Notes under the pieces: generated by a model
What the model was told of the DNA's origin: nothing
The model's database searches: none
Seen by the model: only the letters and a program-made list of their open reading frames with translations
Made by a program: the position numbers and the translations under genes
Origin: Bacteroidales bacterium
Lineage (GTDB): Bacteria; Bacteroidota; Bacteroidia; Bacteroidales; UBA10428
Assembly: GCA_016928305.1 (NCBI GenBank)
Contig: JAFGKY010000042.1
Location: 1-64,000 of the forward strand
Reading direction: 5' to 3'
Length of the DNA stretch: 64,000 bases
Part shown: positions 55,807 through 63,238 of the stretch, one piece after another
Position numbering within the stretch: position 1 is the first letter of the stretch
How the letters are laid out: each line of letters opens with the position of its first letter

Positions 55807-55840
55807 TATATTTGTGTTACGATTTTAAAAAAAGTAACAC
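55807..55840 (+). promoter_or_regulatory. TAnnTTTG -7 element fused to a NikR-type dyad operator
   Basis: TATATTTG (55807-55814) overlapping GTGTTAC-GATTTTAAAAAAA-GTAACAC (55814-55840). Confidence 0.6.
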
Positions 55841-55855
55841 TCGTAATCAATTCTT

Positions 55856-57763
55856 ATGAAATTTCTTGTGCCGCCTTTAATGCTGCTATGTTTATATTTG
55901 AACGCTTTTACCCAGCAGTCGATATCCGATACCATTGCCATTACTGAAATAGTGATTACCGCATCCAAGAATGAGACAGCAAGACGTAATGTACCGTTAA
56001 CCATTTCTTTCATCAAAACAGAAGAAATAGAACAAAGTGACGAATCAGCTATACTGCCGTTCATCAGTGAGCGCACACCCGGTCTGTTTGTCACCGAGCG
56101 TGGCATACTGGGTTTTGGTGTGTCAACAGGAGCTGCCGGTCAGATCAGCATTCGCGGCACCGGTGGATCACCCACCACCCAGGTGCTTATTCTGATCGAT
56201 GGTCATCCTCAGGTAATGGGCATCATGGGCCATACTTTACCTGATGCCTATGTTACTTCAGATGCCGAAAAAGTGGAGGTCATCCGTGGTCCGGCATCCA
56301 TTCTTTACGGATCAAATGCTATGGGTGGTGTCATCAACATAATTACCCGGCAACAGAAGGCTGACGGTTTCAATGTAAATAGCCGTGTTGCATACGGCTC
56401 TTATAATACACAAAAGTATACCCTGAGCGGAGGATTCCGTAAAAAAGGTTTTACTCTCTTCGGGTCAGTTAACCATGGAAGTACCGATGGTCACCGCGAT
56501 AGCTCAGAATTCTCCATCACCAACGGGTATCTTAAGGCAGGATATGTCATTTCCAACAAGATCAAACTGACTGCAGATGTTAACATTGCCGATTATCATA
56601 CCAGGGATCCCGGAAAAGCCGGAAGCATTGCCGGAGTAAAAATGAATATCCTAAGGGGTTCATCATCTCTTTCTGTCGACAACTCCTTCAAAAACACCGA
56701 AGGATCAGTAAAATTTTATCAGAATTTCGGAGATCACGACTTTACTGACGGGTGGAGATCGCATGACGGCATGTATGGTTTAATGGTATATCAGGTAGTT
56801 AAACCCTTTCAGGGAAATACCATAACCGTGGGATATGATTATATGACTTACAACGGGAAAGGCAGTCCTATTACCAAAGTTCTCCGGGATGAAAACGGCA
56901 ACATTATTCCCGGTGAGAATGGTCCCCAGTTTCAGCTTTCGGAATACAGCGACCAATGGATTTCCATGCATAACCATGGTGTGTACACATTCATCCAGCA
57001 ACAGCTGTTGCAAAAATTTACCTTAACGGCCGGACTAAGGTATGAATATAACAGTATATTTGGTGGTGAATTTATCCCACAGGGCGGATTTGCCTTTTAT
57101 CCCGGAATTAATAGTACATTACGGGGTTCAGTCTCCAAAGGATACCGGCCTCCATCCCTTAGGGAACTTTACTTGTTCCCAACTGCCAACGACGAGCTAA
57201 AACCCGAAAACATACTGAACGCCGAAATTGGCTGGGATCAACAATGGTTATCAAAAAAGATTAATACAATTTTAACCCTGTTCTTCCTTACCGGCGATAA
57301 CCTTATCGTTAAAAATCCTCCTGCCCCTCCCCCTCCTCCCCTGTACAAAAACACGGGAGAAATTTCCAACATGGGTATCGAGTTTTCAACTGATATAAAA
57401 CCTCTTGAAGGACTGACCATTCATGCAAATTATGCATACATCCACATGAAAAATCCTGTAACAGGCACACCCGAACATAACTTTTTCATCAATCCAACCT
57501 ACAAAGTATGGAAATTTCATTTCTCAGCCAAAATGCAGTATGTCTGCAACCTTTATGGAGAAAATGCCACAGGCCTTGTTGATGTGATAGAAAAAAGTTA
57601 TGTACTCCTGGGGATAAAAACCAGTTTCAGCATCATTGATAAAATGCTTGAATGCTATATTTCAGGCGATAACCTGCTGAACCAGGATTATCAGCATATG
57701 GATGGTTATCCTAATCCGGGAATCCATTTCATGGGAGGTATTCATTTCAAATTTGCCAGATAA
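55856..57763 (+). CDS. TonB-dependent outer membrane receptor (BtuB/siderophore-type)
   Basis: Signal peptide; EIVITASKNETARRNVPLTISFI; plug VEVIRGPASILYGSNAMGGVINIIT; C-terminal HFMGGIHFKFAR. Confidence 0.94.
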   Translation: MKFLVPPLMLLCLYLNAFTQQSISDTIAITEIVITASKNETARRNVPLTISFIKTEEIEQSDESAILPFISERTPGLFVTERGILGFGVSTGAAGQISIRGTGGSPTTQVLILIDGHPQVMGIMGHTLPDAYVTSDAEKVEVIRGPASILYGSNAMGGVINIITRQQKADGFNVNSRVAYGSYNTQKYTLSGGFRKKGFTLFGSVNHGSTDGHRDSSEFSITNGYLKAGYVISNKIKLTADVNIADYHTRDPGKAGSIAGVKMNILRGSSSLSVDNSFKNTEGSVKFYQNFGDHDFTDGWRSHDGMYGLMVYQVVKPFQGNTITVGYDYMTYNGKGSPITKVLRDENGNIIPGENGPQFQLSEYSDQWISMHNHGVYTFIQQQLLQKFTLTAGLRYEYNSIFGGEFIPQGGFAFYPGINSTLRGSVSKGYRPPSLRELYLFPTANDELKPENILNAEIGWDQQWLSKKINTILTLFFLTGDNLIVKNPPAPPPPPLYKNTGEISNMGIEFSTDIKPLEGLTIHANYAYIHMKNPVTGTPEHNFFINPTYKVWKFHFSAKMQYVCNLYGENATGLVDVIEKSYVLLGIKTSFSIIDKMLECYISGDNLLNQDYQHMDGYPNPGIHFMGGIHFKFAR

Positions 57764-57849
57764 TCCATCCTCATTCAGCCATACTATCACAAAGGGTAAT
57801 ACCAACAGCAATTTGAGAAAAACAACGGGGATCGTATGCAATCATTTTA

Positions 57850-57885
57850 TATCTTTGTGTCACGATTTTAAAAAAAGTATTACAC
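57850..57885 (+). promoter_or_regulatory. Second copy of the promoter/operator element
   Basis: TATCTTTG (57850-57857) then GTGTCAC-GATTTTAAAAAAA-GTATTACAC. Confidence 0.55.
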
Positions 57886-57905
57886 CTTAAATCACTTGAA
57901 ATCGT

Positions 57906-59378
57906 ATGATTAAAAAGGTTTTTGTATTCACGCTGATCCTGTTTCATTTTTTTGTTCTTTGCCAGGCCTCCCCGATTCATGATGAAGATGATCATCCACT
58001 GGTTATCGATACTGACTGTGCATTCGATGATATGCGGGGTATAGGCATGTTATTGTCATGCCCCGGTATAAACATCCAGGGCATTGTCGTAACCGAAGGC
58101 ACTTTATTGCCCGAAGAGGGAGTTATGAAGATCAGGTCAGTGCTGCATGAATTTTCACTGGATACGCTTCCGGTTACCTGCGGAATGACATTTAACAGGC
58201 CCGGACCTGCCTGGCGGGAATTCAACCGGTCAATCACATGGGGAGATCAGCAACAGGAAAGCAACCCAACCATCGATGCTGTTGAATGGCTGCAAAAAAA
58301 ACTGGAAACATGCCCTGACAAGATAACCTATATATGCCTCGGTCCTTTATCAACACTTGCTAAGGTACTCACCTTACGACCTGAGTTGAAAAAGAAAATT
58401 TACAGGATTATCTGGTACAACGAATCCATCGAACCTTCAACCGGCTTTAATTACACTTATGATAAGTCAGCCGCTGATTTTATGATAAGCATGGAGGTCA
58501 GGATTGATCTTATATCCAAACTCAATAAAGAGCAAGCTTTTTGGGATACAGACCTATATACATTTGCCGGTAACTATAATACCACTCTGGCAACGCTCTT
58601 GTCAAAAACCGGGAATCAACCAAACATGATGGAAATACAACATAAGCACCATCTCCGTATGGCTGATGAACTGGTTTCAGCATATTATCTGAATCCTGAA
58701 CTTTTCGATATTACCATTATGCACCCAAGGGTATATATACGCTTCAACAGGGATTATGATCTGGCATCCGTGAAAGAAGTCTTTGCCGATATGATCAGGG
58801 GAAGCTATAAAAAAGGTAATACTGTTGTATTTAGCGCTTTTCCTGACAAGCCTGAGATGTATACGTATGATGTCAGGGAAATAATGGATTCAACGATTGC
58901 ACGATACGGACCAGAGGAATGGAAGGCTTGTGTAATGACCGATGAATTTCACGGACACCTGGGGAGCTTTTCCATCATTGGCGCAAAGATGGGCATCAAA
59001 GCCAGGGAATTATTCGGAGTTGGCCCCGATATACTCATGGTAACATCCTATGCGGGGGTTAAACCACCATACAGCTGTATGAATGATGGCATCCAGGTGA
59101 GCACCGGAGCCACCATCGGCCAGGGACTTATAACCATTGCAGCAGCCGAAAAAAACAGGCCGGAAGCCATTTTCACATACCAGGGAAGATCCATCCGCCT
59201 CAAGCTAAAAGACAGTTACCTGGAGATGGTTGACAAAGACATTGCGGAAGGAATTGTTAAATTTGGCCTGACTGATGACGGTTACTGGAAGATGGTTCGC
59301 CGGTCAGCGCTTAAATATTGGATGGAATGGGACCGCAACGTAATTTTTGAAGTCGAAGAAACAAATAATAACAACTGA
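57906..59378 (+). CDS. Secreted fusion: nucleoside-hydrolase-like N-domain plus FmdE-like C-domain
   Basis: Signal peptide; DHPLVIDTDCAFDDMRGIGMLLSCPGINIQGIVVTEG (IUNH-like); EFHGHLGSFSIIGAKMGIKARELFGVGPDI...CMNDGIQVSTGATIGQG (FmdE-like). Confidence 0.82.
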   Translation: MIKKVFVFTLILFHFFVLCQASPIHDEDDHPLVIDTDCAFDDMRGIGMLLSCPGINIQGIVVTEGTLLPEEGVMKIRSVLHEFSLDTLPVTCGMTFNRPGPAWREFNRSITWGDQQQESNPTIDAVEWLQKKLETCPDKITYICLGPLSTLAKVLTLRPELKKKIYRIIWYNESIEPSTGFNYTYDKSAADFMISMEVRIDLISKLNKEQAFWDTDLYTFAGNYNTTLATLLSKTGNQPNMMEIQHKHHLRMADELVSAYYLNPELFDITIMHPRVYIRFNRDYDLASVKEVFADMIRGSYKKGNTVVFSAFPDKPEMYTYDVREIMDSTIARYGPEEWKACVMTDEFHGHLGSFSIIGAKMGIKARELFGVGPDILMVTSYAGVKPPYSCMNDGIQVSTGATIGQGLITIAAAEKNRPEAIFTYQGRSIRLKLKDSYLEMVDKDIAEGIVKFGLTDDGYWKMVRRSALKYWMEWDRNVIFEVEETNNNN

Positions 59379-59380
59379 AA

Positions 59381-60091
59381 ATGGTTTCAGAACTGAACAT
59401 CCTGCTGGTCACCGCCGCGTCGGTCGGATTCATCCATACTGTTACCGGGCCCGATCATTACCTTCCATTTGTGGTGATCGCCAGAGCCCGTAAATGGTCC
59501 CTGGCAAGAACATCGCTGATTACTTTGTTATGCGGCATCGGGCATGTCGGAAGCTCAATTTTACTGGGTGGATTAGGTATTGCATTAGGGGTGGTTCTTT
59601 CAAAAATTGAAGGTATCGAAAGCTACCGCGGTAACCTGGCTGCGTGGGCCTTTGTTTTGTTCGGGCTGGCATACATGATCTGGGGTATATACAGGGCTGT
59701 AAAAAACAAACCACACAGGCACATTCACTATCATGCAGGCGAAATAACTCACGAGCATGAACATACACATGAAAATGAACACAATCATATTCATTCGAAA
59801 GAAAAAATAATAAATCTGACACCCTGGGTACTGATCATCATATTCGTGCTGGGTCCCTGTGAAGTGCTGATTCCCATATTGATGTATCCGGCGGCAAAAC
59901 ACGGTACCATGGGCATTGTGCTGGTGTCATCCGTTTTTGCTATCGCCACCATTGCCACCATGATGACAATCGTATTGCTCCTCACGGCCGGATTCAACAG
60001 AATCCCCTTTGGAAAGCTGGAGCGTTATACCCATGCTATTGCCGGGGCAACAATTCTGCTCAGTGGAATTGCGATATTGCTGGGATTATAG
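59381..60091 (+). CDS. NiCoT/UreH/RcnA-superfamily metal permease with His-rich loop
   Basis: HTVTGPDHYLPFVVIARARKWSLARTSLITLLCGIGHVGSSILLG; HRHIHYHAGEITHEHEHTHENEHNHIHSKEK. Confidence 0.85.
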   Translation: MVSELNILLVTAASVGFIHTVTGPDHYLPFVVIARARKWSLARTSLITLLCGIGHVGSSILLGGLGIALGVVLSKIEGIESYRGNLAAWAFVLFGLAYMIWGIYRAVKNKPHRHIHYHAGEITHEHEHTHENEHNHIHSKEKIINLTPWVLIIIFVLGPCEVLIPILMYPAAKHGTMGIVLVSSVFAIATIATMMTIVLLLTAGFNRIPFGKLERYTHAIAGATILLSGIAILLGL

Positions 60092-62158: not shown

Positions 62159-63238
62159 TTAATCCCTGATTTCGAACTCAATATGCAACTCCTTTGCAAT
62201 CTCTTTCATTTCTTTTGCTACAGCCGGAAGAAGAGAAATTCCTTCTTCCCTCAACCTGGACTCTTTTTCCCTTTCGGGATCACCGGGAATAAGTACTCTA
62301 TCCCTCCCGGCTGCAGGTTTGGAAGAGCGGAATGTCATTATCCACTCATCCATTTTAGCTTTGAAATCATCAGCAGGCTGAAAGGCATCAATGCGCATGG
62401 CTCCGAAAAAATGGCCGGTTCCTTCCCCCACTTTCTTATCCAATACAGGCAGGTATGCCACGGAGGGTGGCACAAAAGGTCCAAAATTGGCTCCCGAAAA
62501 AACGGCACAGAAAATGTCAACAATAGCACTGAGGCAATATCCCTTATGGCTGCCATGTTCATAATCGCCACCCAGGGTCAGCATAGAACCACCTGATTTC
62601 AGAATGGCAGGATCGTCAGTAGGTTTTCCCTCTTTGTCCTGAATGAATCCTATGGCTACCTTTTCTCCTTTTTTTTCAGCCACAGCCAGTTTTCCGCGTG
62701 CTATGGGGGTTGTGGCAAAGTCAGCCACAAAAGGCGGTTGATTACCTGCCGGTATGGCCACAGCAATAGGATTTGTACCCATCATGCGACTTACCGAAAA
62801 AGTGGGTGCCACAAGTGGATTGGCGTTGGTCAGTGCTATTCCGATCATATCATGCTTCAGGGCCATCAGGGCATAATAACCGGCTATTCCGAAGTGATTG
62901 GAACCCCGGGTGGAAACCCATCCGCTGCCAACCTGCGATGCTTTCGCAATGGCAATTTCCATAGAACGCGAAGCAGCGACCATACCGACAGCGCCATCTC
63001 CATCCACAACCGCAGTACTGGGAGTCTCATGAACCACGCTGACATTGGGTTCAACATTGATACGCCCTGCTTTCCACAACTGGTAATAATCCCTTATCCG
63101 AATCATCCCGTGCGAAGGTATACCGCGAAGCTCGGCTGCAAGAAAAATATCGGCAATCAGTATTGAATCGTCTTCTGAACAACCCATTCCTGAAAAAAAA
63201 TCATGTGTAAATCTATGCAGGTATTCGTATGTGTACAT
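62159..63238 (-). CDS. Malate/L-lactate dehydrogenase (Ldh/YbiC-YiaK family) oxidoreductase
   Basis: AAELRGIPSHGMIRIRDYYQLWKAGRINVEP...RGSNHFGIAGYYA...MMGTNPIAVAIPAG. Confidence 0.95.
   Translation of the reverse strand: MYTYEYLHRFTHDFFSGMGCSEDDSILIADIFLAAELRGIPSHGMIRIRDYYQLWKAGRINVEPNVSVVHETPSTAVVDGDGAVGMVAASRSMEIAIAKASQVGSGWVSTRGSNHFGIAGYYALMALKHDMIGIALTNANPLVAPTFSVSRMMGTNPIAVAIPAGNQPPFVADFATTPIARGKLAVAEKKGEKVAIGFIQDKEGKPTDDPAILKSGGSMLTLGGDYEHGSHKGYCLSAIVDIFCAVFSGANFGPFVPPSVAYLPVLDKKVGEGTGHFFGAMRIDAFQPADDFKAKMDEWIMTFRSSKPAAGRDRVLIPGDPEREKESRLREEGISLLPAVAKEMKEIAKELHIEFEIRD

Follow-up and report, generated by a model that had tools for sequence, protein, structure and literature searches.

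The window, a 64,000-nucleotide stretch of a Bacteroidales genome (contig JAFGKY010000042.1), holds three genes that follow one another on the plus strand. The first (55856-57763) encodes a 635-aa TonB-dependent outer-membrane receptor, assigned from its open reading frame and domain profiles. The second (57906-59378) encodes a fusion, here called NH-FmdE, of a nucleoside-hydrolase (NH) domain (PF01156, residues 32-308) with an FmdE domain (PF02663, residues 348-481), and the third (59381-60091) a predicted inner-membrane permease that is DsbD_2/UreH-like by Pfam and carries an HX5DH motif and a His-rich loop. The collinear run of receptor, two-domain protein and permease described in an earlier note on this DNA is thus confirmed, as three plus-strand reading frames with the expected domains. 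Near the module, on the minus strand at 62159-63238, lies a gene of the Malate/L-lactate dehydrogenase family (Ldh_2) that shows no sign of belonging to it.

Upstream of the receptor gene, a Bacteroidota-type -7 promoter element, TATATTTG (55807-55814, plus strand), ends in the first base of operator 1 (55814-55840, plus strand), a perfect NikR-type dyad GTGTTAC-N13-GTAACAC. Upstream of NH-FmdE, the -7 element TATCTTTG (57850-57857, plus strand) is fused in the same way to operator 2 (57857-57883, plus strand), a degenerate NikR-type site, GTGTCAC-N13-GTATTAC, also found by genome scan. At both sites the final G of the -7 box TAnnTTTG is also the operator's first base, and ACGATTTTAAAAAAAGTA is common to the sequences ahead of the two genes, TATATTTG-TGTTAC from 55807 and TATCTTTG-TGTCAC from 57850, so the shared promoter-operator element reported earlier is indeed there. 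The perfect dyad, too, is exact, with 0.02 copies expected per window in shuffled sequence, and the operator class given in the earlier note is correct: Table 4 of PMC545781 gives GTGTTAC-[N13/14]-GTAACAC for NikR.

The exact dyad occurs once in the 4.8 Mb genome assembly, as operator 1, and in a whole-genome scan with GTRNYACGA-N11-GTRNYAC the only exact matches were operators 1 and 2, the N14 version of this pattern giving no match. In a looser scan the top three matches precede the receptor, the NH-FmdE gene of the window and, on a different contig (C72), a second permease/NH-FmdE pair, the last with one mismatch and in inverted orientation, while matches below rank 3 were at the level of a reversed-pattern control. 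The proposed search for further dyads thus yielded no second exact copy and this one inverted site. The second pair (L033:801-2912; G000:C72) follows its inverted operator at a distance of 71 nt, on a short contig that has no receptor gene.

We also scanned the upstream regions of approximately 120 loci from relatives, allowing up to two mismatches and the published inverted orientation. Operators were found upstream of 14/25 nikR genes and 21/36 receptor genes, as opposed to 5/1190 other genes, and four of these five adjoin genes of the module. Permease genes (3/15) and fusion genes (8/110, many of them operon-internal) were preceded by operators less often. The dyad does, then, occur in front of orthologous operons. 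A fixed-orientation scan over the relatives' whole loci was not enriched over a reversed-motif control; the enrichment emerged once the scan was limited to upstream regions and the inverted orientation was allowed. In 18 of the 47 operators of the family, TAnnTTTG begins exactly 7 nt before the operator, where approximately 0.07 would be expected at the local frequency, and this placement on the -7 box would fit a repressor.

The absence of nikR from the genome had been named beforehand as an observation that would speak against a nickel system. The gene is present on contig C153 (PF08753 match), and its four nickel-ligand positions, taken to be those of E. coli NikR, are kept in 25-26 of 26 homologues. 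Some observations nonetheless count against the nickel reading: nikR is unlinked to the module in this genome, no site with up to two mismatches was found near it, and neither the lar operon of this genome nor the stretches upstream of its hydrogenase operons showed a convincing operator.

The permease had been described as NiCoT-like, with an HX4DH motif and a His-rich loop. The loop is present (about residues 112-138), whereas the motif reads H19-TVTGP-D25-H26, i.e., HX5DH, and the Pfam family is DsbD_2 (PF13386, 30.9 bits, cut-off 24.9). With this motif and no match to NicO (PF03824), we rejected the NiCoT identity; the Pfam match and gene context point to a DsbD_2/UreH-like permease instead. 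No sequence in the PDB matched the permease, and its AlphaFold model is poor (pLDDT 57.5). Since neither CbiM nor NicO (PF03824) was found in this genome, the two permease copies are a candidate inner-membrane route for nickel.

NH-FmdE has an N-terminus that, judged by eye, resembles a signal peptide, and its AlphaFold model (mean pLDDT 89) shows a first domain whose fold matches nucleoside hydrolases. The FmdE domain (58947-59348, plus strand) scores 61.3 bits against PF02663 (cut-off 22.9). In FmdE domains, Zn/Ni is held by His, His, Cys, Cys, and the genes often adjoin those of metal transporters (PMC2954224); in our alignment, with ligands assigned from that work, H349, H351 and C391 do not vary, and an invariant glycine (Gly353) occupies the one other ligand position. 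FmdE-only proteins, which do not contain the NH domain, occur at L072:8630-9232 and L070:8137-8682. In L072 such a protein replaces the fusion inside a nikR-receptor operon; its gene starts after a good ribosome-binding site, and we saw no upstream extension or signal peptide. Because the FmdE-only protein stands in for the fusion here, FmdE looks like the core part of the fusion, whose role, we infer, is to bind a nickel complex and hand the metal on.

Relatives of the fusion (the best 80 of 327 in named genomes were kept) are nearly all from Bacteroidota, with a few from Aminicenantes and Chlorobiota-labelled MAGs. Partner genes lie at 43 of these 80 loci; the other 37 have none of them, in some cases owing to short contigs. 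These 37 loci count against the nickel reading, as does the fact that the relatives are not phylogenetically independent. The arrangements include nikR-receptor-fusion with or without the permease (L036, L041, L046, L051, L098, L138 and others), nikR-nikM-PDGLE-nikQ-nikO-fusion (L076 and five more) and nikR-receptor-fusion-nikMNQO (L110, L123 and L096, which is cut by the contig end). In some relatives, nikMNQO thus stands in place of the permease or alongside it. Permeases of this family are also encoded in nikR-lar-permease operons of the nikR-larECB type (L094, L157, L158, L159), one of which, L159, has a perfect operator before nikR. In the Bacteroidales operons at L157:4769-8726, L158:6640-10548 and L159:5256-9318, NikR appears to control nickel-pincer nucleotide synthesis. 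Several relatives carry NiFe hydrogenase genes close to the module, and the genome under study includes genes for NiFe hydrogenases along with larCEB and two larA-like genes.

Co-occurrence with nickel genes was tested across 295 genomes of the order, with shared ancestry ignored. The fusion co-occurs with NikR (21/42 vs. 50/253, p = 7e-5) and with LarC (14/42 vs. 24/253, p = 1.4e-4), and not significantly with NiFe hydrogenase. Among NikR-positive genomes, LarC was again more frequent with the fusion than without it (13/21 vs. 12/50, p = 0.006), and NiFe hydrogenase showed no such co-occurrence.

With genes, operators, NikR, a conserved neighbourhood and nickel-using genes all observed, the locus is very probably a NikR-repressed nickel acquisition module, with the receptor in the outer membrane, NH-FmdE in the periplasm and the permease in the inner membrane. 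When nickel is sufficient, NikR, encoded elsewhere in the genome, would bind the site beginning at the -7 promoter box, and the bound Ni-NikR would block transcription of the receptor gene and, as a second unit, of the NH-FmdE/permease pair; this two-unit repression is suggested by the position of the sites and by what is known of NikR. When nickel is scarce, the receptor would carry a nickel complex across the outer membrane, periplasmic NH-FmdE would bind the complex, with the His-x-His...Cys site of its FmdE domain accepting the nickel, and the UreH-like permease would move the metal on into the cytoplasm, thereby feeding the NiFe hydrogenases and nickel-pincer (Lar) enzymes. The dedicated uptake system that the earlier note had envisaged is thus supported by nikR, the operators and the relatives' neighbourhoods, and none of the computable observations that it had named against itself was made; transport itself, and with it the metal, the direction, the chelate and every step assigned to NH-FmdE, we infer.

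The NH domain leaves room for a more specific role, although one that we regard as rather improbable. Its DxDxxxDD site and distal Asp (D35/D37/D41/D42 and D254) are present; among 46 homologues, the Ca2+-site residues D37, D41, D42 and D254 never vary and the ribose-site Asn182 rarely does, while the catalytic His before D254 is missing, replaced by Ala in the window protein and mostly by Trp in relatives (these positions being assigned from what is generally known of the family). NH-FmdE might then be a periplasmic enzyme that dismantles metal-bearing ribosides, with NH splitting a scavenged nickel-pincer nucleoside at its ribosyl bond (or, in Alistipes, acting on a cobamide) and FmdE catching the metal; a pyridinium leaving group could dispense with the missing His. 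This idea is suggested by the retention of the Ca2+- and ribose-site residues despite the loss of the His, by LarC rather than NiFe hydrogenase tracking the fusion in NikR-positive genomes, by the existence of nikR-lar-permease operons, and by a derived branch in which the fusion lies behind a cobalamin riboswitch.

That branch also bears on an unlikely alternative, namely that the locus serves cobalt or corrinoid uptake, with a BtuB-like receptor and a fusion that handles cobalamin or cobalt. The nearest solved relatives of the receptor are indeed BtuB, in the plug region, and the BtuB equivalog TIGR01779 is its best NCBIfam match, albeit at 133.6 bits, far under the cut-off of 599.7. Moreover, at six Alistipes-type loci (L140:1702-6194, L142, L144, L146, L150, L152) a cobalamin riboswitch precedes the fusion, and genes for DUF4465 and PKD-domain proteins or for a TonB receptor separate the two. 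In the window, however, no Rfam riboswitch was found between 50000 and 64000 and both units have NikR-type operators, and in the tree the riboswitch loci all fall within a single derived Alistipes group, whereas the nickel context is spread over most clades; 25 other fusion loci that do not have the nikR context showed no riboswitch. The Alistipes-type loci probably represent a regulatory switch from nickel to B12. Because the fusion follows a cobalamin riboswitch in this branch, the family is not strictly nickel-specific; judged from these contexts, it seems linked to the uptake of nickel or of corrinoid/cobalt, the nickel context having the wider distribution.

It is very unlikely that the dyad is the site of another regulator with a similar palindrome, which would leave the metal unassigned: short AT-rich dyads can coincide, and the genome's own nikR has no clear operator, but the same site precedes nikR itself in the 14 relatives mentioned above, including nikR-nikMNQO and nikR-lar operons, and it matches the NikR consensus of PMC545781 as well as the inverted form given there. 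Least credible of all is nucleoside salvage, in which the secreted NH domain would hydrolyse nucleosides with FmdE and the permease incidental, since the hydrolase fold and Ca2+/ribose-site residues are retained but the catalytic His is lost, an FmdE-only protein can replace the fusion (L072), and the neighbours are nickel genes.

A NikR-repressed nickel module would show a definite way for Bacteroidales to obtain nickel, one with related loci in gut genera. It would also place FmdE proteins, which have lacked an established function ever since their structures became available, in a clear biological setting; the operator, the regulator and a mutant set make it directly testable. In a 2009 survey, almost no nickel transporters were found in Bacteroidetes, though several species use nickel (PMC2667541). 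The UreH secondary transporters of that survey are, as here, small permeases beside nickel genes, the assignment here coming from the DsbD_2 match and context. Our fusion shares its core domain and the greater part of the Zn/Ni site with the FmdE family (PF02663; PMC2954224), from which it differs in being joined to an NH domain, apparently secreted, and in having the invariant Gly353 in place of the third ligand, Cys.

In our literature search, made mostly outside subscription journals, we found no earlier description of the NH-FmdE component or of its recurrence in Bacteroidales, and no paper on FmdE with TonB or with nickel in Bacteroid- taxa. In its predicted role the receptor resembles FrpB4 of Helicobacter pylori, a NikR-repressed TonB-dependent nickel receptor that is not known to have an NH-FmdE partner. 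The NikR regulons of delta-proteobacteria have the same operator, GTGTTAC-[N13/14]-GTAACAC, also as inverted GTAACAC-N-GTGTTAC, and their targets are nikMNQO-type transporters and a hydrogenase, with no TonB receptor or NH-FmdE mentioned in the parts of PMC545781 consulted. Also close are the predicted loci of Caldithrix abyssi, where, as here, NikR-like sites, a TonB receptor and a nickel transporter are found in one locus; they use NikMNQO, and the portions of PMC5317091 consulted mention neither an NH-FmdE fusion nor a UreH-like permease. The combination of NikR, TonB receptor and nickel transporter has thus been predicted before, in Caldithrix (PMC5317091), and what is new in the Bacteroidales module is its NH-FmdE component.
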